Under the pieces are notes generated by a model. It was given only the letters and a program-made list of their open reading frames with translations. It searched no databases and had not been told where the DNA came from. The position numbers and the translations under genes are program-made. A DNA stretch of 26,299 bases from a virus, in IMG/VR virus record IMGVR_UViG_3300005782_000024, positions 1-26,299 of that record, one strand, 5' to 3'. Shown in pieces: positions 2,283-17,988 of the stretch (positions within the stretch are counted from its first letter, which is position 1; each line of letters begins with the position of its first letter).

Positions 2283-2726
2283 ATGCCCGCTGCAAAGAAA
2301 ATCCGAATGACCCTAACAGGCCCGTTTAAGGGCGTAACAAAATTATTTGGTCGATACCAATTCATCAAAGGTATCTGTGACTTCATCGGAAACGAAGATC
2401 AAGTCGCCAATGTTGCCAAATACTTCACCAGAAGTTATCAGGTAAAAGTGAAAAACATTACAGGCAAAATTGATGATCCTGTGGATGATCCAGAGGCCGA
2501 TGACTCAGGTGTGGTTGGTGATGAACAAATTCAGGACGTCCCAGAAGAACCGAACCCAAGACAGGCTGATATCATAGCCGCCGTGAATGGAATCGAAAAA
2601 GAAGAGTGGGTCGATCTAAAAGCGAAGACACCGCGTCCCAGAGTTAAAGATGTCTCGGTGTTGATGGAAGACCCAACTATCACAAAAGCAGAAATTGTTG
2701 AGGTCATCGAAAAATGGCTTTCGTAG
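2283..2726 (+). CDS. Small neck-region protein with C-terminal HeH-like segment
   Basis: 147 residues in three visible parts. Residues 1-58 are a compact basic, beta-rich segment (IRMTLTGPFKGVTKLFGRYQFIKGICDF) ending near YFTRSYQVKV, a pattern I associate with small phage proteins found between capsid and connector genes. Residues about 60-95 form an acidic, proline-containing linker (DDPVDDPEADDSG). Residues about 110-147 (RPRVKDVSVLMEDPTITKAE to the end) resemble the short helix-extension-helix/LEM-like segments often found at phage protein C-termini. GGAG at 2274-2277 is the ribosome binding site. Function is not known; a capsid-associated or head-completion role is inferred from position only. 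Confidence 0.7.
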   Translation: MPAAKKIRMTLTGPFKGVTKLFGRYQFIKGICDFIGNEDQVANVAKYFTRSYQVKVKNITGKIDDPVDDPEADDSGVVGDEQIQDVPEEPNPRQADIIAAVNGIEKEEWVDLKAKTPRPRVKDVSVLMEDPTITKAEIVEVIEKWLS

Positions 2727-3232
2727 TACAAGACCCAGACGCCCCGCTATCAACAGCAAATGCTTACATCGACGTGGCTGCATTCAAAACCTACCACGAT
2801 GATCGGGGTAACGCGTACACCGCTACCGATACGGAGATCGAACAAGCGATAGTCAGGGCAACGGATTACATGGACTCCAGATGGACGTTCGCGGGCTCGC
2901 GGCAGGACGCAGATCAATCTACCGAGTGCCCGCGATCTGGGGTCTATGACCCCAACTCTGGTCTATCCGTGGACCCGTACCCGGAAGAATTAGAAGAGGC
3001 TTGTGCAGAATATTCAATATCCGCGTTGGCGGGTTCGTTGTATCCTCTCTCGAATGTTGACAGCACTGGCCGAGACGTTAAAAAACTTAGAAAGAAAGTT
3101 GATGTTATTGAGACCGAAACTGAATATTTCAATCCAGGCGGCACTGCCTGGAAATTATTTTCGGTGGCTGATGGGAAGATGATTAAAACAAAATTATTGG
3201 TGTCTCGAAGACGAACTTTGGGAAGAAGTTAA
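2714..3232 (+). CDS. Head-tail adaptor (DnaT-like family)
   Basis: 172 residues, overlapping the previous gene by 13 nt with GAGGT at 2700-2704 as ribosome binding site. The opening FVVQDPDAPLSTANAYIDVAAFKTYHDDRGN, the aromatic helix ATDYMDSRWTFAGS, the strand with TECPRSGVY, and the helix YPEELEEACAEYSISALAG match a well-spread phage family that databases often label a DnaT-like DNA-binding protein. In phage gene order this family sits exactly where the first head-completion adaptor (gp6/gp15-like) belongs, joining portal and neck. I therefore take it as the adaptor and regard the DnaT label as unhelpful. The conserved stretch VKKLRKKVDVIETETEYF near the C-terminus is also typical. Confidence 0.72.
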   Translation: MAFVVQDPDAPLSTANAYIDVAAFKTYHDDRGNAYTATDTEIEQAIVRATDYMDSRWTFAGSRQDADQSTECPRSGVYDPNSGLSVDPYPEELEEACAEYSISALAGSLYPLSNVDSTGRDVKKLRKKVDVIETETEYFNPGGTAWKLFSVADGKMIKTKLLVSRRRTLGRS

Positions 3233-3265: not shown

Positions 3266-3664
3266 ATGGGAAGCTTTGCAGATTTTTGGGAACAGGAAAT
3301 CCTGGACCATGTCTTCAATAAAGGTGCGTACACTGCCCCGACAATTTACGTTGGCCTGAGTACCGCTGATCCTGGTGATGACGAAGCTGGTCTGGCCGAG
3401 CCTTCGGGCAATGGTTATGCTCGTGTAACAACCGCTGCTGGTGATTGGAATGCGGCAACTGCGGCCGGCCTCATCGACAACCTGAACGCTTTAACCTTTC
3501 CCGAAGCTTCTGGTTCGTGGGGCACTGTGACGCACTTCGCGTTGTTTGACGCCGCCACGCTTGGAAACATGCTGGCCCACGGAACATTGGGCACACCGCA
3601 GGCAATCGTCAGTGGTAATACGCCCAGCTTCGCTGCCGGCGAGCTTGATGTATCCTTGGATTAA
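3266..3664 (+). CDS. Small virion protein of tail-fibre-like beta-sandwich family
   Basis: 132 residues. It begins with a short amphipathic helix (FADFWEQEILDHVF), then PTIYVGLSTADPGDD, the GNGYARV motif, LTFPEASGSWGTVTHFALFD, and ends in AAGELDVSLD. This series of motifs marks a common phage family of about 130 residues, usually annotated as a tail fibre or structural protein, and the fold is expected to be all beta. A ribosome binding site AAGGAG stands at 3254-3259. A diverged paralogue is encoded at 14409-14795 among the fibre genes. Placed here, before the neck genes, it may decorate the head or connector; the true location in the virion is not shown by the sequence. Confidence 0.72.
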   Translation: MGSFADFWEQEILDHVFNKGAYTAPTIYVGLSTADPGDDEAGLAEPSGNGYARVTTAAGDWNAATAAGLIDNLNALTFPEASGSWGTVTHFALFDAATLGNMLAHGTLGTPQAIVSGNTPSFAAGELDVSLD

Positions 3665-3690: not shown

Positions 3691-3721
3691 TTGCGGCCTG
3701 TGTCGCTTGCACAGGCCGCAA
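3691..3721 (+). terminator. 12-bp hairpin before the repeat-protein gene
   Basis: TTGCGGCCTGTG (3691-3702) pairs perfectly with CACAGGCCGCAA (3710-3721) around the loop TCGCTTG. The stem is long and G/C-rich but only TTAATAATG follows, not a run of T, so it is a weak terminator, pause site or RNA processing element. It ends 9 nt before the ribosome binding site of the next gene. Confidence 0.65.
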
Positions 3722-3740: not shown

Positions 3741-5531
3741 TTGGCTACTGAGAAGCGAAATCTTTCTGCCCTTGATGTTAATCTAAATGTCACATGGACT
3801 AACGCGTCCAATGCATATACTGAGGACGATAACTACGCATCAGGTTCGGATATAGGAACCGCCGGCAATTACGCTGGTGGAAACTTTCAAGATATCACGC
3901 AGACACCTACCGCTCTCGATGACTTCAAAGTTAGATTCTACGACATAAACTCAGAGCATACCAATGACACCTATGATCTTGAAGTCTATAATCCAGACAC
4001 CACATCCTGGGAATCTCTGGAGACATTCAATGCCGGAAATCTTTTGCCAACAAGTTTGACGACGAAAGATTACACCACTGCGATGCAGAGCAAATACTCT
4101 GCGGCAACCAATAAGACAACTTTCCTGGATGGTCTCCAATTAAGGCTCTATGTCACCACAAAGCAAGCGGGTCCGGACAACGTGAACCTTGGGTTAGCGT
4201 GGGCCAACTTTACATACACCTATTCCGGTACTACTCCTGTTGCATTAGACGGAACCTCGGATGCAGTATCAACTGTTACTGGTGACATTGAGGTCTCAAA
4301 AAAAATTACTGGAACCTTGGACGCGGCGGCAACCGTTACTGGTGACATCAAGGTCTCGAAGAAAATTACTGGAACCTCGGACGCAGTATCGACCGTTACT
4401 GGTGACATCAAAGTTGCAAAGAAGCTCACGGGCACAATAGCAGCAGTATCGAGTGTTGATGGCGATCTCTCAATAACCACAGCACTCACAGGTACAAGTG
4501 ACGCAGTATCGACCGTTACTGGTGACATCAAAGTTGCAAAGAAGCTCACCGGAACCTCGACTGCGGTGTCAAGTGTCAACGGCACACTCTCGGTTTCAAA
4601 GAAGCTCACAGGTACAAGTGACGCAGTATCGACCGTTACTGGTGACATCAAAGTTGCAAAGAAGCTCACAGGCACAATAGCAGCAGTATCAAGTGTCAAC
4701 GGCACACTCTCGGTTTCAAAGAAAATCTCAGGCACAATAGCAGCGGTATCAAGTGTTGATGGGGAACTAACAATCGTCGGAGCTGAGGTGCCGCTTGATG
4801 GAACCTCGGACGCAGTATCGACCGTTACTGGTGACATCAAAGTTGCAAAGAAGCTCACCGGAACCTCGACTGCGGCGTCAAGTGTCAACGGCACACTCTC
4901 GGTCTCAAAGAAGCTCATTGGCTCTGTAATCGCCAGCTCAAGCGTAGATGCTACGCTCACAACGTTCGCATTTTTATCGGGAAGTATTATTGCCAACTCA
5001 AGCACCTCTGCTCCTGAACTTAAAGTGTTAAAGAAATTGAGCGGTGCTATCCAAGCAACTGCCTCAGTGGATGGTCTTATCCTCGTAATTAAAAAACTCA
5101 CTGGAACCATATTGGGAGTGTCAACAGTAATTGGCGACCTCACTATCTCAGGGGGACCAGTTGAATCCGAAGTTGATCTCCCAGATGAGTGGATGTGGAT
5201 AGGAAATCTGATAAATGATGAGGGCCGCGAAATGACCATCGCCGTCCCTGGGTCTGAGGCTAATCCGCCAGAGGATTGGCGAGGCAATACTCCCGGACCA
5301 CCAGTAACTGCTACCGGCGTCATGGTTAGATATAAAGCGGCCCAGATTGACAATGACCAAATTAAGCGTGCGGATAAGAAAATTTTACTTGCCCCGGTAA
5401 CTGCGATAGATATTGAGGCCGGGACTAAGATAAATGATTCCCTGGACTCTTCGAGCTGGATTGTAAAAAATGTTAAAAAGATTACTGTGAAATCAGATAT
5501 TCTACTTTATGTTTTACAGGTGAGACAATAA
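3741..5531 (+). CDS. Repeat (whisker-like) protein fused to a head-closure-like domain
   Basis: 596 residues from a TTG start; GAGGT at 3730-3734, 6 nt upstream, supports it, and no ATG is available in frame. Residues 1-170 look like a jelly-roll/lectin-type beta sandwich (DDFKVRFYDIN, LQLRLYVTTKQ). Residues 171 to about 475 are about 15 units of 20-23 residues with consensus GTSDAVSTVTGDIKVAKKLT. The last about 115 residues (LPDEWMWIGNLI to SDILLYVLQVRQ) align along their length with the whole protein of the next gene, sharing WRGN, ATGV, SSW-VKN and SDILLY-LQVRQ. So a neck-type domain seems to anchor a long repetitive stalk carrying a distal lectin-like head, as in a collar whisker. The stalk model is inference; the repeats and the duplication are seen directly. 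The TTG start and the hairpin upstream suggest low expression. Confidence 0.75.
   Translation: MATEKRNLSALDVNLNVTWTNASNAYTEDDNYASGSDIGTAGNYAGGNFQDITQTPTALDDFKVRFYDINSEHTNDTYDLEVYNPDTTSWESLETFNAGNLLPTSLTTKDYTTAMQSKYSAATNKTTFLDGLQLRLYVTTKQAGPDNVNLGLAWANFTYTYSGTTPVALDGTSDAVSTVTGDIEVSKKITGTLDAAATVTGDIKVSKKITGTSDAVSTVTGDIKVAKKLTGTIAAVSSVDGDLSITTALTGTSDAVSTVTGDIKVAKKLTGTSTAVSSVNGTLSVSKKLTGTSDAVSTVTGDIKVAKKLTGTIAAVSSVNGTLSVSKKISGTIAAVSSVDGELTIVGAEVPLDGTSDAVSTVTGDIKVAKKLTGTSTAASSVNGTLSVSKKLIGSVIASSSVDATLTTFAFLSGSIIANSSTSAPELKVLKKLSGAIQATASVDGLILVIKKLTGTILGVSTVIGDLTISGGPVESEVDLPDEWMWIGNLINDEGREMTIAVPGSEANPPEDWRGNTPGPPVTATGVMVRYKAAQIDNDQIKRADKKILLAPVTAIDIEAGTKINDSLDSSSWIVKNVKKITVKSDILLYVLQVRQ
4251..5159 (+). 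repeat. Tandem 60-bp coding repeats
   Basis: About 15 in-frame units, mostly 60 bp. Three copies starting GACGCAGTATCGACC at 4380, 4500 and 4620 are spaced exactly 120 bp apart and are near-identical for about 50 bp; a fourth begins at 4809, 189 bp on, because one unit in between is 69 bp long. A second unit type (GTxxAVSSVNGTLSVSKK) alternates with the first, giving a 120-bp higher-order repeat. Units after about 4920 are diverged. This pattern indicates recent duplication by unequal recombination or slippage in the central part, with older units at the 3' end. Confidence 0.92.
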
Positions 5532-5896
5532 TGTCGCAAGCACTTCCAACCGAATGGGCCTGGATCGAAGCATTGATCGAAGATAAAGGTAGAGCATTAA
5601 CAATCACGATTCCCGGAACCGAATCAGATGTAAATAAGCCGTGGCGTGGGAATGTCGATGGTGTACCAATAGACGCTATAGGTGTATTTATTCATTATAT
5701 GTCTACAGAGGTTCATAGCGATCATATCAGACGTGGCGATCAAAAGGTATTTCTTATCCCCAACGAGGTTGTGGATATTGAGGAAGGCACCAAAATAGTG
5801 GATTCATTGGATGGTTCGAGCTGGAATGTTAAAAATATTGAGAAAATTACCAATAAGTCCGATATTTTACTTTACATTTTGCAGGTAAGACAGTAA
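5531..5896 (+). CDS. Head-closure (stopper)-like neck protein
   Basis: 121 residues, with the ATG overlapping the previous stop (TAATG). The pattern is that of the small beta-barrel neck proteins that close the head after packaging: an N-terminal helix (TEWAWIEALIEDKGR), LTITIPGT, PWRG, a barrel core with IGVFIHYMSTEVHSDHIRRGDQ, VFLIPNEVVDIEEGT as the strand before the IVDSLDGSSW turn, and the final YILQVRQ. The C-terminal domain of the preceding repeat protein is clearly its paralogue. The order adaptor, closure, terminator, tube agrees with neck assembly in lambda-, HK97- and SPP1-like phages. Identification is by pattern and position; it could instead be a different small neck protein. Confidence 0.6.
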   Translation: MSQALPTEWAWIEALIEDKGRALTITIPGTESDVNKPWRGNVDGVPIDAIGVFIHYMSTEVHSDHIRRGDQKVFLIPNEVVDIEEGTKIVDSLDGSSWNVKNIEKITNKSDILLYILQVRQ

Positions 5897-5905
5897 AATA
5901 GTAAT

Positions 5906-6325
5906 ATGATAGCATCACGTACAGACGCAAGAGATAGAATGCTAACGCCGCTGAAAGCGGTGGTGGATGCTCAATCATTGTATGCGATTTATGATGATAC
6001 GAATAAAACAGTGCCGAAAGATGAAACGATCAAGTGGGTTCGCATCAGTGTTCGACACCGAGTCGGAACAAGAGCATCTTTGGGCCGAGCAGATGATAAG
6101 AGCAAGCATACACAGGCTGGATTTGTGTTCGTGGAGATTTTTACTCCGCGTGAAGATGGGTTAGTAAATAGTGACGTTCTTTCTGCGGCGTTCGCAGATA
6201 ACTTTCGGAATCCGTCAGACGGTGACATCTGGTTCAAAGATGTTTCGGAAGTTGAAATGGGCGAAGATGGAAATTGGTTTAGAACAGACGTAATCGCAGA
6301 GTTCGAGTACGACTTGATACAGTAA
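5906..6325 (+). CDS. Tail terminator / tail completion protein
   Basis: 139 residues. The N-terminal helix (RDRMLTPLKAVVDAQ) is followed by IKWVRISVRHRVG, SLGRAD, then QAGFVFVEIFTPREDG, a helix VLSAAFADNF and the C-terminal strand WFRTDVIAEFEYD. This is the layout of the phage tail terminator group (lambda gpU-like, often listed as DUF4128), which caps the tail tube and docks it onto the neck. It sits directly before the tail tube gene as expected. The ATG at 5906 has no clear ribosome binding site and starts 9 nt after the previous stop, so translation may depend on coupling. Confidence 0.68.
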   Translation: MIASRTDARDRMLTPLKAVVDAQSLYAIYDDTNKTVPKDETIKWVRISVRHRVGTRASLGRADDKSKHTQAGFVFVEIFTPREDGLVNSDVLSAAFADNFRNPSDGDIWFKDVSEVEMGEDGNWFRTDVIAEFEYDLIQ

Positions 6326-6341: not shown

Positions 6342-7877
6342 ATGGCAGCAGTAAACAAAATCAATTCAAATGTAGTTGAGACAGCGTATGCTGAGGAATC
6401 CAGCATCAAGACGCTGCCGGGTACTCCAATCTGGCGTCCTCTCGATGTGAACAGCTTTTCAGATTTCGGTGGTTCGATCTCCAAGGTTACGAGAACACCG
6501 TTTCGCACGGATCGACAGCGACGTAAGGGTCAGACGACTGATCTGGACGCGGCTGGTTCCGTTAACCATGATCTTGTCCAAGAAGGGCTACAAGATTTAT
6601 TGCAGGGTTTCTTCTTCGCCGACTTGCGGGCAAAAGCCGAAGTTGGTGGTGCCGGTGAAATAACTGGTGTCACTACAGGCCCCAATACCTACACCGCAGC
6701 AGCGGGACTTGACGTCTATGAAGTTGGCGATCTTGTCTTTGTCACTGGCTGTACCAACGCCGCCAACAACGGACTCAAGACTGTCACCACCGTCCTTGCG
6801 ACTGTGTTGACTGTTAGTGAGACGTTGGTTGCCGAGACACCTCCGGCCACAGCCAAGATTGTGGCAGTTGGCTTTGAGTTCACTACTGGTGATCTCGTAG
6901 TCGATACGACCGGAAGTCTTCCGCAGTTGACCGCGACATCTAAAGACCTGACCGAGTTGGGCCTCGTACCCGGCGAATTCATCTACATCGGTGGTGACGC
7001 CGCAGCCACGCAGTTCGACACAAGTGGAATGGGTTTTGCCCGTTGCCGGTCAATCGCTGCGGGTGCAATCGTTATCGACAAGTGTCAGGCCGACATGGTC
7101 GCTGACACTGCCGCAGCCAAGACAATCCAAGTCTTCTTCGGTCGCGTCTTGAAGAACGAGACCGGAACCGACATCGTAAGGCGAACCTACAATGTCGAGC
7201 GTCAGCTCGGTGCTCCCGATGACGCATCGCCGACGGAGATTCAATCAGAGTATTTGGTTGGAGCTACTCCGAATGAGATGACCTTAAACATCCCCACCGC
7301 TGATAAAGCGATGATTGATCTTGCGTTCGTCGCAATGGATCACGAGACCCGCACAGGAGCCGTGGGTATAAAGTCCGGCACGAGAGCCGCAGCAATTGAA
7401 GAGTCGGCATTCAATACGTCGTCAAATGTTCCGCTGATTAACCTGGCGGTCGTCAGCGACACCGATGAGAATCCGACACCGCTGTTCGCGTTTGCTGAGG
7501 AGATGAGCATTGTTATCAACAACAATGTTTCGCCCGACAAAGCAATCGGCATCCTCGGTGGGTTCGACGCGAGTTATGGCAACTTTGAAGTCAGTGGCAG
7601 TATGACTGCTTACTTCATGGATGTCAATTCCATTGCAGCGATCAGAGACAACTCCGATGTCACGATGGATATGCACCTCGTCAAAGAGAACGCCGGTATC
7701 ACGGTCGATGTCCCGCTGATGTCCCTGGGCGATGGAAGACTGGACGTAACTCAGAATGAAGCGATCCGAATTCCACTGAGCCAGGAAGCAGCCATTGGCT
7801 CCGGTGCCATAGCTGGCTACACACACACAATGCTGATATGCTTCTGGGATTATCTACCAGACGCAGCGGCTGTATAA
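6342..7877 (+). CDS. Major tail tube protein
   Basis: 511 residues, with AAGGAG at 6328-6333. The N-terminus (NVVETAYAEESSIKTLPGTP, then WRPLDVNSFSDFGGSI and a TRTPF segment) and the following motif GQTTDLDAAGSVNHDL fit a broad family of siphovirus tail tube proteins. This protein polymerises around the tape measure to form the tail shaft. It is longer than typical tube proteins (about 200-400 residues). Residues about 105-185 (TGVTTGPNTYTAAAGLDVYEVGD and the following strands) look like inserted beta domains, which may project from the tube surface. The C-terminal third (IVINNNVSPDKAIGILGG, MTAYFMD) looks like the second tube-like domain. It is followed by a terminator. Confidence 0.82.
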   Translation: MAAVNKINSNVVETAYAEESSIKTLPGTPIWRPLDVNSFSDFGGSISKVTRTPFRTDRQRRKGQTTDLDAAGSVNHDLVQEGLQDLLQGFFFADLRAKAEVGGAGEITGVTTGPNTYTAAAGLDVYEVGDLVFVTGCTNAANNGLKTVTTVLATVLTVSETLVAETPPATAKIVAVGFEFTTGDLVVDTTGSLPQLTATSKDLTELGLVPGEFIYIGGDAAATQFDTSGMGFARCRSIAAGAIVIDKCQADMVADTAAAKTIQVFFGRVLKNETGTDIVRRTYNVERQLGAPDDASPTEIQSEYLVGATPNEMTLNIPTADKAMIDLAFVAMDHETRTGAVGIKSGTRAAAIEESAFNTSSNVPLINLAVVSDTDENPTPLFAFAEEMSIVINNNVSPDKAIGILGGFDASYGNFEVSGSMTAYFMDVNSIAAIRDNSDVTMDMHLVKENAGITVDVPLMSLGDGRLDVTQNEAIRIPLSQEAAIGSGAIAGYTHTMLICFWDYLPDAAAV

Positions 7878-9182: not shown

Positions 9183-11619
9183 GAAAGAACTACTGTTAAT
9201 TGAAATTCGTGAAAACGGTGCCCGTGTTGTCAAACGTAATATCGAAGGTGTTGGCAAAGCTGGTGACGCAACTTCGGATCAGATGGATAGGTTGAAGGGA
9301 ATTCTCGCCGGACTCGTTTCTGCGAGGGTACTACGTGACACCATCATGCTCGCAGATGCTTACGCGAATATGCTCAATAGACTTAGGGTTGTAACAGAAA
9401 GCACCTGGGAGTTGAATGCGGCGATGGAAGGTGTCTTTAGGATGAGTCGAGAGACGCGTACCTCAATGGAAGCAAACATTGATATGTATGCCCGTGTTGC
9501 AATCAACACAAAGCAGTTGGGTTTACAATATAAAGACGTTCTTCGATTCGCAAAGCAATTGAATCATGCGATTATTCTATCAGGTGTCACCGCCCGTGAG
9601 GCTCAGTGGGGTATGGTTCAGTTCTCCCAGGCACTTGCATCAAACGCATTACGTGGTGACGAACTTCGTGCTATTCTTGAACAGTTGCCTGTAGTGACAG
9701 ATGTCATCTCGGCACATTTTAATGTCACTCGTGGTGAGCTTCGAGAGCTTGGTTTTCAGGGTCGAATCACAGCCAAAGAAATTATCAAGGCTTTTGAGAC
9801 GGCCGAAGAAAGTTTGCGGACGCGATTTGAGAAACGTATTCCAACAATCGACCAGGGTATAACGGTTTTGAGATCAGCTATTCTTAAATTTGTTGGTGAC
9901 ATAGATCAAGGCATTCAATTCACCAGTAATTTTGCCGGTGCCCTTCTTTGGGTGGCAGACCACATGGAAACATTTGGCCGATTTGCGATGATTGCCGGCA
10001 CAGTCTTAGGCACGATCTATTTGAAGAACCTAATTCTAATTATTGCTCAGATGAGATTATTCAGTCTTGAGGTACTCAAAGTTCATCCGTTGGCAACAGC
10101 TCTTCTTCTGGCGGGCACTGCATTGGTAATTTACTCGGACAAGATTAAACTTGCTTCCGACTCGAACGCGACCTTGGCTGATACAATGAAAGCCCTCGGC
10201 GAAAATGCTAAAACAACATACAAATTTTTGCGGGACGGTATTGCAGGTTTACTTGAAGGCAGAGAAATCCAGACAGAGTTTTCAGTGACGCTTGAGAATG
10301 TCTTGTTAGACGGTGCAAGATTCATCGACAAATTTCTCGGCCTCTTCGTTGGTGCCGGTGAAGTTATTAAGAAAGTATTTAAGGATATTCCCAATTACGC
10401 TAAACATGCTTGGAATGCAATACTTAGTGGGATTGAGACTATCGCCGATTATATTATGGCAGTGTTCGTAAGTATAGGTGACATGATCCTAATCTTTGCG
10501 TTGAATATCAAGGCAGGGATGGGTTCACTTTCTGGTGCGGCCGAGCAACTGCTGGCTGGTAATGCCTCGAAGGCGGCAGAATACGCCGATCAAGCAGCGT
10601 TATCATTTAAGAACGCGGCTACCCAAGGATTCAAAAGCTTCTCCAATATTTTAAGTGATAACCTTAAAGCTGCCGCGAGTGAGGATTCACTCGCCGGAGC
10701 CAAATTCAAAGTAGAGCAGGCCGGTGAGTCGATAGGTGATGCGTTCGGTCGTGGTTTCGCTATGTCCGATGTTATTGGTGCTGGAGTTGAAGCCATCATT
10801 GGTAGAGCGAAGACAGCGGCAGCGGCTCGCGGTGGTGACGCCCCGGAGCAAGAAGATTTTACGAAGTGGTCTCCGACACCTGTTCAGAGTCAGCTCATCA
10901 AAGAGATGACTGGTGACATAGGTCGATTTATTGGTGAGATGGAACAGCTTGACGATATTTGGCAGATGGTAGCCTCACGCACAGAAGACAAACAGCTCAT
11001 TAATTTTGAGCAGTATACCAGAAAAATGGCTCAGTTGAGACTGGAGGCAATGAAGACTGCCACCGACGTGAAGACAGGTTTCCAACGTGGCTTCCTTACT
11101 CTGGGCCTGGAGATAAGCAACTTCGCCGAATTAGCAGAGAAGACAATCACTAACGCCTTTAAGAATATGGAGGATGCCTTGGTGTCCTTTGTCACCACAG
11201 GCAAGATTGACTTCAAAGGTCTTGTAGATTCGATGCTTGCAGACCTGACTCGGCTCCTGGCCAGACAAGCTATTATGGGATTACTCACAAGCATGGCTGG
11301 CGGCGGTGGAATGGGCAGCACGATAGCTGGTGCTTTCGGCGTGACACCAAACACTGGCTCCCCAGTCCCAAGAGCCCTTGGTGGTGCGGTCTCTCCAGGT
11401 ATGCAGTACATGGTTGGCGAACGCAGACCTGAACTATTCCAACCGGCACAGCCTGGGCATATAACACCGGCACCAATTATTCAGCCGCCTGCCCAGGAAG
11501 GTGCGGTGACGATCATCAACGTGGCAAGTGAAGAAGAAGGTCTCGCCGCAATGCAGAGTGCAGAGGGTAAGAGAATTATTAGAAACGAAATCAGAACCTA
11601 CAAAAGTGGGAGAAACTAA
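9172..11619 (+). CDS. Tape measure protein
   Basis: 815 residues from a GTG start that overlaps the previous gene. Residues about 45-240 form the conserved tape measure N-terminal domain (LKGILAGLVSARVLRDTIM, LRVVTESTWELNAAM, GDELRAILEQLPVV, ITAKEIIKAFETAEE). Hydrophobic, probably membrane-active segments lie near residues 271-292, 305-322 and about 430-450. Residues about 660-715 (FKNMEDALVSFVTTGKIDF then LADLTRLLARQAIM) match the lambda gpH-like C-terminal domain, and RALGGAVSPGMQYMVGER is the usual ending motif before the tip-binding end. It sets tail length, blocks the tube lumen before infection and may help DNA cross the inner membrane. At about 0.15 nm per residue the tail would be near 120 nm. 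Confidence 0.93.
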   Translation: MADKKELLLIEIRENGARVVKRNIEGVGKAGDATSDQMDRLKGILAGLVSARVLRDTIMLADAYANMLNRLRVVTESTWELNAAMEGVFRMSRETRTSMEANIDMYARVAINTKQLGLQYKDVLRFAKQLNHAIILSGVTAREAQWGMVQFSQALASNALRGDELRAILEQLPVVTDVISAHFNVTRGELRELGFQGRITAKEIIKAFETAEESLRTRFEKRIPTIDQGITVLRSAILKFVGDIDQGIQFTSNFAGALLWVADHMETFGRFAMIAGTVLGTIYLKNLILIIAQMRLFSLEVLKVHPLATALLLAGTALVIYSDKIKLASDSNATLADTMKALGENAKTTYKFLRDGIAGLLEGREIQTEFSVTLENVLLDGARFIDKFLGLFVGAGEVIKKVFKDIPNYAKHAWNAILSGIETIADYIMAVFVSIGDMILIFALNIKAGMGSLSGAAEQLLAGNASKAAEYADQAALSFKNAATQGFKSFSNILSDNLKAAASEDSLAGAKFKVEQAGESIGDAFGRGFAMSDVIGAGVEAIIGRAKTAAAARGGDAPEQEDFTKWSPTPVQSQLIKEMTGDIGRFIGEMEQLDDIWQMVASRTEDKQLINFEQYTRKMAQLRLEAMKTATDVKTGFQRGFLTLGLEISNFAELAEKTITNAFKNMEDALVSFVTTGKIDFKGLVDSMLADLTRLLARQAIMGLLTSMAGGGGMGSTIAGAFGVTPNTGSPVPRALGGAVSPGMQYMVGERRPELFQPAQPGHITPAPIIQPPAQEGAVTIINVASEEEGLAAMQSAEGKRIIRNEIRTYKSGRN

Positions 11620-13385
11620 TGGCGTTCTTTAAGGGAACAGCGACAGAATATCAAGACTTCTTGGATCAGTTAAAGAGTTTGGTTAAAGATGATCATATCT
11701 CCGTAGCTGGTGTATACAATGGCGGCACTGGTTATGCTGTGCATGATACCATCACACTGGCTGGTGGTACAAAAGCCCATGAACCTGAGCTTAAAGTGCT
11801 GGCTGTTGGCAGTGGTGACTACATCACGGTTGCAGCAGTTAACGCTGGTGGGTCGGGCTATGCTGTTGGAGATTCACTTGTCCCAACAACTGGAACTTAT
11901 GATGTGGCCCCGGAGCTGGAAGTTTTAACCGAATCGGCTGGGGTAGTGACATCAATACTCATTAAGAATCCAGGTATTTGTTCTTCGCAGCCGACAAATC
12001 CAGTAGCGACTACGTCGGACGGTTCCGGCACTGGCTGCACGATTGATTTTACGTTTGCAGCAGGTACGGGAATTGTCACCAGCGTGCATATTGCTGACGC
12101 TGGGGTCTATACGACACAGGCGACCAATCCTGTAAGTCAAAATACAACAAGCGGCTCTGGCACAGGTGTGAAATTTACATTAACCTATCTTGATACCGCG
12201 TGGGAAGTTTTGATTGATTTTGAGGCTCAAGAGGCTACAGCAGCAGTTATCAGTGCGGCAGGCACTGGCTACACAGCAAACGACATTGTGACAGTCGTTG
12301 GTGGATCATTCACGGTCGCCACTACTGTCAAAATACTCACCGTATCGGGCGGCGTACCGCAGACAGTTGAGGTCTATACCGAAGCCGGTGAATATAGTAC
12401 AACGCCATCCAACCCGGCAGCGACGTCTGGCGGCACAGGCACAGGATTGACACTCACGATGACTTGGGCGGATGCAACGGACGAACGCAAATACCTAATG
12501 ATCCACAACACGACCTCAGACCAATACATTGGTTGGAAGGGTTTCAAAGAGACGGTTCCTGAGACAGCTTACTTGCTTCAATGCACAGGATTCACGGGCT
12601 TTAATTCAATAAATACGCCGTGGGACGAACAGCCAGGAGCAAGCACAGCTTTGGCGATTAATGCAGGCACCTATACACCGCTGTCTGGCGGTGGCAGTCC
12701 AGCAACAATCAACTATTGGCTGAGCGTGCAGGATTCACGGGTAGTTGGTGTGTTTCGAGTTGCTTCCACCTATCCCAACATGTACTTAGGTAGTGTTGAC
12801 GCATATCTCACTGTGGGTGAGTATGCTTATCCTCAACTGATAATGGGTTGTATTTCAACAAAACTTCCTTACACATACTCAGGTGTGCCTTACGCGGGCA
12901 TGAACAATCCAGGGTGTAATGATGCTGATTCACCAACCTATCCTGGACCAGGTTGGTTGCGTACACCAGACGGCTCCTTCAAAAAAGTGCTTAATTGGGA
13001 AGGCACAGCCCAACCGTTCATATTTTCGGATGAAGTCAATGTCACACCATCAGGCGGGGCTAATTATACTATACCAGCCGCACCAAACGCTTGGTATAAT
13101 AATTCACCATCCAATTGGCGTGAACTGTTTCGAGAAAGCACCACTATATCAGGCACGCAATACGAGTTGTTGCGAGTGTCCGATGAGTTTATATTTGTGC
13201 CCTGCACCTTAGTTTCCAAAACATACGGCAGGGTCTATGGCAACATGAGAGGCATTTACTGCATCAATCCGGATGCGGCAGTTGCTCCAGAAGATCAAAT
13301 ATATGTCGGTTCTGATATATACCGAGTATTTCAAAACTGTAATAAAACAAACAGAAATTACTTCTTCGTCTTGAAGGAAAATTGA
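11619..13385 (+). CDS. Tail-associated virion protein with GGxGY-VGD repeats
   Basis: 588 residues, start overlapping the tape measure stop (TAATG). A short N-terminal helix (TEYQDFLDQLKSLV) leads to glycine-rich beta repeats: GGTGYAVHD (residues 35-43), GGSGYAVGD (77-85) and AGTGYTAND (214-222), each followed by strands ending in GSGTG or GTGTG. This repeat type is common in phage structural proteins. Residues about 289-588 form a globular domain (RKYLMIHNTTSDQYIGWKGF, INYWLSVQDSRVVGVFRV, YLGSVDAY) that resembles in layout the next gene product, so the two are probable paralogues with different N-terminal parts. A fibre or tail-surface role is inferred from place and repeats. Confidence 0.68.
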   Translation: MAFFKGTATEYQDFLDQLKSLVKDDHISVAGVYNGGTGYAVHDTITLAGGTKAHEPELKVLAVGSGDYITVAAVNAGGSGYAVGDSLVPTTGTYDVAPELEVLTESAGVVTSILIKNPGICSSQPTNPVATTSDGSGTGCTIDFTFAAGTGIVTSVHIADAGVYTTQATNPVSQNTTSGSGTGVKFTLTYLDTAWEVLIDFEAQEATAAVISAAGTGYTANDIVTVVGGSFTVATTVKILTVSGGVPQTVEVYTEAGEYSTTPSNPAATSGGTGTGLTLTMTWADATDERKYLMIHNTTSDQYIGWKGFKETVPETAYLLQCTGFTGFNSINTPWDEQPGASTALAINAGTYTPLSGGGSPATINYWLSVQDSRVVGVFRVASTYPNMYLGSVDAYLTVGEYAYPQLIMGCISTKLPYTYSGVPYAGMNNPGCNDADSPTYPGPGWLRTPDGSFKKVLNWEGTAQPFIFSDEVNVTPSGGANYTIPAAPNAWYNNSPSNWRELFRESTTISGTQYELLRVSDEFIFVPCTLVSKTYGRVYGNMRGIYCINPDAAVAPEDQIYVGSDIYRVFQNCNKTNRNYFFVLKEN

Positions 13386-13386
13386 T

Positions 13387-14409
13387 ATGGCTTATCAAAC
13401 TGGTTCAGCCTCCGACGCCACAGACTTAATGAATAAGTTGCAGACATTTGCTGCGGCAAATGGGTTCACAGTGGATTATTACAATGGCACTACTCGATTC
13501 TTATCAATCAGCCGTTCGACTGATTTGTTATGGTGCTCCTTCTATTGGGATAATGTAAACACTATCGCCATGTACCAAGCGTTGGGTTACGCCGGGGGTT
13601 ACGCTGAGACACCTTGGCTCCAAGTAAGTGACTCTGGCAACGGCTCCAGCACTCCTGGTTCAACAATCGAAGCCGGCCGTCACGTTAGTAACATCGGGGC
13701 TGGCCCATTCGTGGCGTACCATTTCTTTGCCTACACCGATCCGTATGCCATCCACGTCGTACTTGAATTTGTCTCTGGACTGTATCGTCACTTTGCTTTC
13801 GGCCAACTGAATAAAACAGGTACATGGGTGGGCGGGGCCTTTGTTACCGGCCATATATGGAATGATGGTGGTGCCTACGGTGTGTATTCAATACCACATG
13901 CCTCTTCGCATTCCTTATTGCTGGATGGAGGATTAAGGTTGGATGCGGGTTATTCTGTTGACAACGGCAGCGGCACTCTACACGCTTCGGGCTTACCAGG
14001 ACAGGCCGCAGGAAGCAAGTGGGGCTTGGGCACTGCTCCAGAATCGCCTGATGCTGAGTTGTTGACTGATCGAGACGGCAACGCACGTATTCGCACACCT
14101 GGCGGCTGTCGTCATGGCTTGGCACTTTCTCAATTGGGGCCTTACTTACCAGACCTATCCAATGGTTTTATCCCGATCATACCGTTTGAGGTATTCTATA
14201 CACGCGGATTAGAGGGTGCAGATGGATATTACTATCTGGGCCGAATGGCTAACTGTGGTCACATACATTTACATGGAATTGATCCTGCCCAAGAGCTGAC
14301 AGTGGGAGCGGATACATGGATTGCGTTTCCCGCCGTGCGGAAGTCGAACATCGGTGGGATCAATCAAGAAAGCGAAAACATGGGCATCATTTATCGAAAG
14401 GATGTTTGA
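13387..14409 (+). CDS. Tail-associated virion protein, paralogue of upstream gene
   Basis: 340 residues with AAGGA at 13374-13378. It begins with the same kind of helix as the upstream gene (SDATDLMNKLQTFAAANGF), then FLSISRSTDLLWCSFYWDN, and the middle VAYHFFAYTDPYAIHVVLEF, YRHFAFGQLNKTGTW corresponds in order and spacing to INYWLSVQDSRVVGVFRV, YLGSVDAYLTVGEY in the upstream protein. It ends in a segment ILGM-like (WIAFPAVRKSN to MGIIYRKDV). It lacks the GGxGY repeats. The family is one I associate with phage virion proteins of unknown fold near the tail tip. The stop overlaps the next start (TGATG), so the two are translationally coupled. Confidence 0.65.
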   Translation: MAYQTGSASDATDLMNKLQTFAAANGFTVDYYNGTTRFLSISRSTDLLWCSFYWDNVNTIAMYQALGYAGGYAETPWLQVSDSGNGSSTPGSTIEAGRHVSNIGAGPFVAYHFFAYTDPYAIHVVLEFVSGLYRHFAFGQLNKTGTWVGGAFVTGHIWNDGGAYGVYSIPHASSHSLLLDGGLRLDAGYSVDNGSGTLHASGLPGQAAGSKWGLGTAPESPDAELLTDRDGNARIRTPGGCRHGLALSQLGPYLPDLSNGFIPIIPFEVFYTRGLEGADGYYYLGRMANCGHIHLHGIDPAQELTVGADTWIAFPAVRKSNIGGINQESENMGIIYRKDV

Positions 14410-14795
14410 TGAGTTTTTCAAACTTTTGTGAAAATTATTTACTCAATGCTTTATTCACAGGCAAGACAATATATGTTGGTTATGGATCAGCGGCTGATGA
14501 AGCAAGCATGACTGAATTATCAGGCAGCGGCTATACCCGTAAAGCGTATGGGGCCTGGACGCTGACAGCAGTGGGTTTGGACGAACAGGCCGTATCAAAC
14601 GACGCAGCGATTACGTTTGACACAGCCACTGGCTCACAAGGAACGTGCTCTGTTATCGGTTTCTTTGACGCAGTGACGGGTGGTAATTTTTTAGGCAGCG
14701 TGACTCTGGCTGAACTTGGCCTGAGCGATATTAATGTTATTCTCGGCACACAAATTTCAATGGCTATTGGAAAATGTAAGTGCCTTCTGGATTGA
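14409..14795 (+). CDS. Small virion protein, paralogue of the 3266 gene
   Basis: 128 residues. The ATG at 14409 is preferred to an upstream in-frame ATG at 14316, which would lie wholly inside the previous gene; AAAGGA at about 14397-14402 supports it. The motif series helix (SFSNFCENYLLNALF), TIYVGYGSAADE, GSGYTRK, ITFDTATGSQGTCSVIGFFDAVTGGNFLGSV repeats that of the 3266 product, with the C-terminal VSLD motif replaced by KCKCLLD. It is a beta-rich small structural protein, here in the fibre cluster. It contains several cysteines not found in its paralogue (FCENY, GTCSV, KCKC). Confidence 0.7.
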   Translation: MSFSNFCENYLLNALFTGKTIYVGYGSAADEASMTELSGSGYTRKAYGAWTLTAVGLDEQAVSNDAAITFDTATGSQGTCSVIGFFDAVTGGNFLGSVTLAELGLSDINVILGTQISMAIGKCKCLLD

Positions 14796-16071: not shown

Positions 16072-17988
16072 ATGGCTGATTATAAACAAAATATAGGAGC
16101 GTATCGGAACGATTATCCTGCTGGAGCCCACACAGGTAACATAGGGGCACATCAGAATGATCCACCGTCGTTTTCGGATGCGACTATACCCATTTCCGGT
16201 GCAGGCTCTTTCACGGTTGAAATTGTTATCAACTTCGATCTTGAAATTGATGTCTCAGGAGCCGGTGAGTTTACGGCTGAATTGGATGTCACCAACAATC
16301 TCAACCGGGGCCGCACCATAGAAACTTTCTTAATCTCGACTATTCCGGGATGGGATTCAGGAGCCAACCAAGGCTCGGCCCAACCGTGGAGTCGTTCTGT
16401 GCCACAGATCATCGCTGACCTGAGTAGTGGTGGCGGTGAACAAGGAGTAAGACAACCACCAGACGGCAAGGTGAAAGAAGGGGCTGGCATCATAGTGGGC
16501 CACGAGATTCCGTGGTTTGGTTTCGCCCATCTTCTGCCACGACTGGTCCAAGACATGGGCAACCTGGTTTCAGAACAGGTAATAGACTGCGAACTATATA
16601 ATGCAGATCGACACAATCAAATCACTGTGTCATCCATCACTAATAATCTTGGTACTGGTATAGAAGTCTCTGGAGTCCCAACACCTCCGTTCAACATTGA
16701 CTCACAAAACGGCCTTCTCTTCACGGTGACAGTGGAGCGTACTGGCGATCTGATTATTGATGGCACCTACACACTTACGTTATCAACTGGCGAAGAGTAC
16801 ACACTATACTTCATCGGCTCAAGAATTGTTTTGTTCCCGATTCGTCCAGAGAGTCCGCTCCGAGAGCATTTACTTTTCGATACAAAGATCATTGAAGCGG
16901 TGGATGGTTCTGAGCAGCGTATCGCAAATCGTCAATATCCTCGTGGTATGTTCGAGGCGACATATAAAGGCGGTCAGAAGAAAATAGAAATGCTTCTGTT
17001 TGATCGTCAAAGCAAAGTCGTAGCTTATCCGGCATGGCATGAGCCGTCGTATTTAGCTGGGTCTCACTCAGTAAGTGATTTAACTGTCACTGTCAACACA
17101 ACTAACTATGCGAACTTTTTTGTTGGCGGCTACGCGGTTGTGCTGCAAGATGAGAATCATTTTGACGCATTGAAGATTGCGTCGATGACTGCAACGACGC
17201 TTACGTTTGAGTCTGGCCTGAGCTATAACTATGCCGACAAGGTGCAAGTAATGCCGCTACTCACGGCGTACATCGAGGCTTCGTCGGCGTCTCTCAAATA
17301 TCCATACAATCAGCAATACTTCAATTTGCGAGTCCATGTGCATCCGGAACTCAACGATATCGCGGATGACTCGGCTTGGAGTGTTTATGACAGTAAACCA
17401 TTCATGGATGCTCCGAACATGATCGAAGGCGGTCAGCTCGCAGAGGCTCTACGAACCAAAGTCTTCGTCATCGACAACCTCACTGGGCATCGGACATCCG
17501 TAACAGCGTGGGATCACGGCAAACGATATAGTAAGAAGGGCTGGAAAACAAATAGTCGTCAGGAACTCTGGGAACTTCGTCAGCTTCTTCATTTCCTCAA
17601 AGGCCGGCAAGTGTCATTCTACATCCCAACATTTTGGAAAGACCTTGTTGTCACTGAGACAATGATGATCGGCACCTTTATTCTCAATATGGATAATATT
17701 GGCTACACGACCAACGCTGCTCAAAGATGGCCGAAACAATTTATTCGCATCATCTTCAAAGATGAGTCGATACTGGTCAGGGAAATTCAGAGCAGTGCTG
17801 AGGTCAGTGAGACCCAAGAACAGCTTACATTGGACGTTTCGTGGGGTGCCACCTATCAGCCCGAAGATATCGAGCGGATAGAATTTTTAGAAAAAGTCAG
17901 AATAGATGTTGACGACATCGTCATAATACATTATAATGCACTTGGACAATCAGAATGTATAGTGCCGATTAAGGAGGTCAATAAGTAA
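16072..17988 (+). CDS. Distal tail / baseplate protein
   Basis: 638 residues. Residues 1-30 hold two short related motifs, NIGAYRNDYP and NIGAHQNDPP, like the closing motif of beta-helix proteins. Residues about 80-250 (TIETFLISTIPGWDSGANQ, GHEIPWFGFAHLLPRLVQDMG) and the C-terminal half with the helix SRQELWELRQLLHFLKGRQ followed by VSFYIPTFWKDL match the pattern of the tail-tip protein that precedes the hub in gene-transfer-agent-like and BR0599-like tails. It likely forms the ring between tube and hub. Two strand segments (ASMTATTLTF, YADKVQVMPLL) read as a small inserted barrel. The start has a poor ribosome binding site, 5 nt after the previous stop. Confidence 0.58.
   Translation: MADYKQNIGAYRNDYPAGAHTGNIGAHQNDPPSFSDATIPISGAGSFTVEIVINFDLEIDVSGAGEFTAELDVTNNLNRGRTIETFLISTIPGWDSGANQGSAQPWSRSVPQIIADLSSGGGEQGVRQPPDGKVKEGAGIIVGHEIPWFGFAHLLPRLVQDMGNLVSEQVIDCELYNADRHNQITVSSITNNLGTGIEVSGVPTPPFNIDSQNGLLFTVTVERTGDLIIDGTYTLTLSTGEEYTLYFIGSRIVLFPIRPESPLREHLLFDTKIIEAVDGSEQRIANRQYPRGMFEATYKGGQKKIEMLLFDRQSKVVAYPAWHEPSYLAGSHSVSDLTVTVNTTNYANFFVGGYAVVLQDENHFDALKIASMTATTLTFESGLSYNYADKVQVMPLLTAYIEASSASLKYPYNQQYFNLRVHVHPELNDIADDSAWSVYDSKPFMDAPNMIEGGQLAEALRTKVFVIDNLTGHRTSVTAWDHGKRYSKKGWKTNSRQELWELRQLLHFLKGRQVSFYIPTFWKDLVVTETMMIGTFILNMDNIGYTTNAAQRWPKQFIRIIFKDESILVREIQSSAEVSETQEQLTLDVSWGATYQPEDIERIEFLEKVRIDVDDIVIIHYNALGQSECIVPIKEVNK

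Follow-up and report, generated by a model that had tools for sequence, protein, structure and literature searches.

Between the head-tail adaptor and the tail terminator of a siphophage, a single open reading frame (ORF) joins an N-terminal domain, a long array of repeats and a neck-type domain, raising the question of whether a protein of the head-tail joint can itself carry a fiber. The window analyzed here, a stretch of 26,299 nucleotides that corresponds to IMG/VR virus record IMGVR_UViG_3300005782_000024, contains this ORF with the following parts.

3741 to 5531, + strand: gene of the putative fiber-stopper fusion, 596 aa, TTG start, start context common to contigs L003 and L005
3741 to 4235, + strand: N-terminal head domain, residues 1 to 165, tentative beta-sandwich, same module in contig L014 (72 to 73% identity)
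4251 to 5162, + strand: repeat stalk, residues 171 to 474, 15 repeats of about 20 aa, predicted to be beta-solenoid-like
5175 to 5528, + strand: C-terminal Hc1/stopper domain, residues 479 to 596, PHROG 161, Z of 11.5 to the phage 812 stopper, member of the fused-Hc1 clade

Parts of the fused protein

A Shine-Dalgarno-like GAGG precedes the TTG start; L003 and L005, the latter sampled independently, show both this start and the reading frame of the fused ORF. The three-part build that a sequence-only reading had assigned to the ORF, namely, an N domain, repeats and a neck-type C-terminal domain, was confirmed by ORF, repeat and profile analyses.

The C-terminal domain matched PHROG 161, "head closure Hc1," with an E value of 8.5e-11 over residues 489 to 596 (positions 13 to 119 of the 120 in the profile) and was identical to the product of the next gene at 65 of 117 positions (56%; E = 2e-49). 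An hmmsearch with the family profile retrieved PDB entry 10lj, "Stopper protein gp12" (E = 1.2e-7). The full-length model (27 rows) had a mean pLDDT of 61.6, with the Hc1 part mostly at 75 to 86, and its residues 481 to 596 aligned with the phage 812 stopper 8qgr (Z of 11.5, rmsd of 3.6, 110 aligned residues). Foldseek returned the T1 stopper 9l0e and the entry 9jlf for the fused protein with a probability of 0.99, the E values being weak for a query that was the whole 596-aa model, and neighbors of the Hc1 part included T1, FCWL1, Pam3, GTA and SPP1 neck proteins. Profile, synteny and fold thus agree with the earlier claim that this domain and the product of the gene starting at 5531 are neck proteins, in both cases of the Hc1/stopper type, and the structural comparison with neck folds that had been proposed as a check gave the same answer.

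Upstream of this domain, 15 repeat units with the consensus GTxxAxSxVxGDLxVxKxLT occupy residues 171 to 474, 12 of the 14 intervals being exactly 20 aa, so that the initial estimate of about 15 tandem 20-residue repeats was accurate. At the DNA level their period is 60 bp (TRF score of 276), and a 120-bp period scores 509. Residues 171 to 474 were predicted to be all-beta, with a pLDDT of about 60, and were modeled as a parallel beta-solenoid matching 3p4g (Z of 21.9, rmsd of 3.7) and tailspikes (Z of 18 to 19), a match that may be generic, given that the repeat model is at pLDDT 60. At 4.8 Å per turn, the 15 repeats might span about 7 nm, an estimate in which we have low confidence. Similar repeats occur, as repeat-level matches only, in fiber-region proteins of Microcystis and Pseudanabaena phages among the named phages, and the N terminus of the tail assembly protein of the window (16072 to 16300) contains about two stalk-like units (ISGAGSFTVEIVI...VSGAGEFTAELDV). 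In L003, the array comprises five units fewer (4251 to 4712, versus 4251 to 5000 in the window) and carries private substitutions; the same metagenome also yielded L004, a contig identical to the window. Judged from these two contigs, stalk length varies within one population.

The neck operon and its relatives

The neighbors of the fused gene were identified mainly by profile searches.

2714 to 3232, + strand: head-tail adaptor Ad1 (PHROG 477, E = 1.7e-34)
3266 to 3664, + strand: GP4 fiber-I-like protein (PF23140, Pfam E = 7.6e-41), at the neck position only in fused loci
3691 to 3721, + strand: GC-rich RNA hairpin between the fiber-I-like gene and the fused gene
5531 to 5896, + strand: free-standing Hc1/stopper, 121 aa (PHROG 161, E = 1.4e-12; 70% identity to the Hc1 of L035)
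5906 to 6325, + strand: tail terminator (PHROG 179, E = 1.9e-14)
6342 to 7877, + strand: major tail tube protein (Phage_tube_2; profile matches, homology to the YuA tube)

Overall, the window encodes a scaffold, capsid, Ad1, PF23140 protein, the fusion, Hc1, tail terminator, tube, chaperones, Neck1 and tape measure. Its major capsid and tube proteins are 72 and 52% identical, respectively, to those of Pseudomonas phage YuA, with the same gene order, and by these comparisons the phage belongs among the YuA-like siphophages (Mesyanzhinovviridae). YuA and its relatives have Hc1 immediately after Ad1, and the order seen in the window (Ad1, fiber-I-like protein, fusion, Hc1, terminator, tube) matches theirs apart from the bracketed pair formed by the fiber-I-like gene and the fusion.

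A PF23140 gene directly after Ad1 was present in all three fused loci with upstream sequence (the window, L041 and L042) and in L005, which carries the N domain; of about 76 unfused loci with Ad1, none had it there. These neck copies are 79 to 83% identical to one another; a second, 39% identical copy lies downstream, nearer the tail genes, and the unfused relatives L056 and L037 have only the downstream type. In the window, this second gene (14316 to 14795) stands among putative tail-fiber/structural genes and, if its first ATG is the start, overlaps the end of the preceding ORF. We know of no function for PF23140 in a siphophage neck. Strong hairpins of different sequence occupy the same place, between the fiber-I-like gene and either the fused gene or the ORF ahead of it, in the window (3691 to 3721), L005 (4944 to 4981) and L041 (2338 to 2363, found by reading), the one in L041 being the only one of the three followed by a T-rich tail; the hairpin possibly acts as a terminator or in mRNA processing and thereby controls how much fused protein is made. 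L041 (2329 to 2772) and L042 (2881 to 3324) have between the fiber-I-like and fused genes a 147-aa ORF that is absent from the window. Elsewhere, the Ad1 ORFs of L081, L097, L107 and L108 are 281 to 320 aa long, with an apparent insertion of about 75 to 105 residues that could be another neck decoration. Two adjacent genes of the window (11619 to 14409) have a PHROG 687 "structural protein" domain in common, and the first of them also has several repeats matching a PHROG head-decoration family.

To place the fusion among related phages, we took the best 80 of 395 confirmed relatives obtained by a tube-protein alignment scan and scored their ORFs with purpose-built profiles. Of the loci examined, about 84, some of them overlapping, had one free Hc1 of 117 to 167 aa, and four phages had a fused Hc1, namely, the window, L039, L041 and L042. 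The window carries the 596-aa fusion plus a free Hc1. The fusion is a 1,107-aa ORF in L041, a 923-aa ORF in L042 and at least 484 aa long in L039, a 4.3-kb fragment in which it is cut at the contig edge. In these three, it lies directly before the tail terminator, the usual position of the free Hc1, and it is the only Hc1 detected. Whole-contig searches of L041 (50.7 kb) and L042 (52.1 kb) with PHROG 161 and the L035 Hc1 found no second Hc1; the two phages are close relatives from one metagenome, and their contigs are linear and may miss a few kilobases, the YuA genome being 58.7 kb. A dedicated scan for the repeat-Hc1 junction added no members to the four, the junction was not found in 50,697 named phage records, and two scans of genome contigs found no prophage copies in bacterial genomes. 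The closest relatives of the window, L034 and L035 (96% tube protein), have the free Hc1 alone, which in L035 directly follows Ad1.

In a tree of Hc1 domains, the four fused ones formed one clade (97/97) and the free Hc1 of the window fell outside it, its highest identity (70%) being to the free Hc1 of L034/L035. Tree and identities together ruled out a local tandem duplication of Hc1, so that the "duplicated neck subunit" of the sequence-only reading does not hold as a local event, and the fused copy appears to be an old lineage rather than a local duplicate. In all four fusions, conservation covers not only Hc1 but also the linker and the last repeats (55 to 88% to L042), which argues for one fusion event. 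Since the close relatives L034 and L035 lack the fusion, the window phage is most simply seen as a phage with a free Hc1 that has the fused lineage in addition. The fused Hc1 is under purifying selection, like the free Hc1, with a dN/dS of 0.095 to 0.10 (L039 versus L041/L042, dS of about 1.4) compared to 0.10 to 0.14 for the free form. Ten close free Hc1s have 38 invariant residues in common; the fused Hc1 of the window retains 35 of these and the sole-Hc1 fused forms retain 28 to 30, with mostly conservative changes. The fused lineage can apparently serve as the stopper itself.

The N-terminal parts of these proteins differ more. The N domain is common to the window and L039, while the head of L042 combines a Laminin_G_3 domain (Pfam E = 2.4e-7) with a further domain, and that of L041 is a longer version of the L042 head. 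A Pfam search of the window N domain (residues 1 to 165) gave no match, and no lectin (LamG/ConA-like) Pfam domain was found in the window head; the lectin-like head that had been proposed for the window protein was thus not recovered there but in L042. As to the beta-sandwich suggested for the N terminus, the models were of this character but their confidence was low (pLDDT of 50 to 62). Modeled alone, the N domain had a pLDDT of 50 and generic jelly-roll neighbors (PNGase F N domain, Z of 6.6; chondroitinase CBM, Z of 6.0); a fold assignment from these neighbors was set aside, since these values lie below a safe level. The same module (72%) begins an unrelated protein of more than 1,200 aa in L014 (5001 to 8723 of a 77-kb contig), which carries SPSASESPS (Ser/Pro) repeats and ends at the contig end; the gene preceding it in L014 apparently has a distant copy of the domain at its end. 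Across the fused proteins we therefore found the arrangement of neck fibers or whiskers, with a constant anchor, a stalk and exchanged tips. Together with the variable stalk length, this looks like the pattern of an adhesion fiber.

A proposed stopper-anchored fiber

Because the heads differ between phages while the repeat-to-Hc1 junction and Hc1 itself are conserved, the protein resembles a fiber anchored by its C terminus. We consider it likely that the fused protein is a neck fiber anchored by its stopper (Hc1) subunit, and it is probably an accessory adhesin. The C-terminal Hc1 domain would dock to the adaptor ring where head and tail meet, the repeats would form a stalk leaving from the N-terminal side of the stopper, and the N-terminal domain would be an exposed, exchangeable tip. 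The T1 stopper is a hexamer in which the N-terminal helix surrounds adaptor hairpins (PMC11945409); that of R4C is likewise hexameric, and its N-terminal helix makes contact with the adaptor (PMC10276861). Since this helix contacts the adaptor in both phages, an N-terminal extension can plausibly leave outward, and since the siphophage stoppers solved are hexamers, up to six fibers could surround the neck where the fusion is the sole stopper (L041, L042 and probably L039). In the window phage, fused and free Hc1 may share the ring, or the fused form may build a second layer, giving fewer arms or a mixed ring. Like other neck fibers, for which such roles have been proposed, it would serve in sensing or in accessory binding to glycans of the cell surface. 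We infer virion incorporation, stoichiometry and binding of the fused protein.

The idea of a docked fiber gains strength from L041 and L042, where no Hc1 other than the fused one was found. Against it speaks the window phage, which keeps a free Hc1, so that the fused copy is not needed for the slot. This free copy also bears on the reading that the window fusion is an accessory or decaying paralogue outside the neck, the free Hc1 doing the work and the stalk protein attaching elsewhere, for example, at the head or tail tip. That L034 and L035 manage with the free Hc1 alone, and that unrelated phages have the N module and this type of repeat without Hc1, would fit such a paralogue. However, the retention of nearly all invariant residues in the window fused Hc1, the use of the same lineage as the only Hc1 of relatives and the place of the gene within the neck operon make this explanation unlikely. 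An assembly chimera was rejected as the source of the architecture. Repeats can break assemblies, and the L003 array is indeed shorter, but the same architecture was found with diverged sequences in independent assemblies from three metagenomes, parts of it lying on L003 and L004, other contigs of one metagenome, and the remainder of the evidence coming from L039 and L041/L042, which represent two further metagenomes; we regard an artifact of this kind as extremely improbable.

Two further explanations concern how the polypeptide is made or processed. The fusion could be a precursor in which a protease cuts between stalk and Hc1, yielding an ordinary stopper and a released fiber. A short, less conserved linker does precede Hc1 (...GGPVESEVDLPDEW in the window, ...GVTEAEIDLPDDW in the others), residues 462 to 480 have a pLDDT below 50, and a freed Hc1 would ease crowding of the ring. 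Yet no protease site is known, the last repeats beside the linker share the conservation of Hc1, which fits the two remaining joined, and the separate free Hc1 gene would make processing pointless in the window; we consider cleavage unlikely. Alternatively, internal translation starts could yield free Hc1 plus some full-length fiber, with few ring positions bearing fibers. This would explain how L041 and L042 avoid six large appendages, and GTG codons are found upstream of Hc1 in L039, L041 and L042, but these GTG codons lack a clear Shine-Dalgarno site, and in the window no in-frame start codon lies just ahead of Hc1, the first being an ATG inside the first helix (WMW), so that we think internal initiation quite improbable.

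Taking the stopper-anchored fiber further, the head-closure ring of some siphophages might itself be a fiber array, in which each stopper bears an N-terminal arm of about 1,000 residues ending in a lectin. We put this forward tentatively and consider it doubtful; if true, one polypeptide would both seal the genome and contact the host or environment, possibly coupling binding to neck opening.

Comparison with known neck proteins

The stopper domain itself is of a familiar kind. It is homologous to the siphophage stopper Hc1 (SPP1 gp16 type; PHROG 161; T1 gp44) and belongs to the slot between the adaptor and terminator genes, but known Hc1s stand alone (117 to 167 aa here), whereas the fused protein adds about 480 to 990 N-terminal residues of stalk and head. 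The neighboring fiber-I-like gene has its own counterpart in fiber I of podophage GP4 (gp80; PF23140, PDB 8jou), the same domain being encoded in the gene after Ad1, separate from the fused protein.

A parallel in design is the neck passage structure (NPS) of the lactococcal 936 and P335 phages, likewise an optional long neck protein with a constant anchor, a stalk and exchanged carbohydrate-binding tips (PMC6669499, PMC10684548). The NPS has an N-terminal BppU-like sandwich as its anchor, followed by a helical stalk and a C-terminal tip, whereas the fused protein would have a C-terminal stopper anchor and an N-terminal tip; the N domain of the window has no Pfam match and a low-confidence model, and the recognizable neck domain is C-terminal. 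The tips of the lactococcal NPS show weak binding to host cells, and TP901-1 can do without its NPS (PMC6669499).

Fibers radiating from a neck ring are also found in Anabaena phage A-1(L) (gp82-gp81-gp80 on gp5), but these are separate proteins hooked noncovalently on a pentadecamer, with no stopper fusion, and they may not act in primary recognition (PMC10966104). The fibritin whiskers (wac) of T4 are neck fibers as well, made of coiled-coil proteins separate from the neck rings; we found no sequence relation between fibritin and the fused protein, which gave no Pfam match and whose stalk was predicted to be all-beta rather than coiled coil. Alteromonas phage R7M, a siphophage, has hairy whiskers at the head-tail interface, for which ORF28, adjoining Ad1, is the candidate and whose role was left open (PMC8265664). 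ORF28 (1,154 aa) precedes Ad1, the 126-aa Hc1 is separate, and R7M has no repeat-Hc1 fusion, unlike the window.

The open-license literature yielded no described case of a stopper-fiber fusion, in agreement with the earlier remark that no neck protein of such build had been described. If confirmed, the fusion would make the neck a site of covalent, stoichiometric display and give a C-terminally anchored fiber, the reverse of many fibers. It would also allow the role of neck whiskers in siphophages, still open for R7M and the lactococcal phages, to be addressed directly. Known neck fibers are separate proteins on neck rings, whereas here the genome-retaining stopper itself would be the anchor, and some phages of the fused type apparently encode no other stopper.
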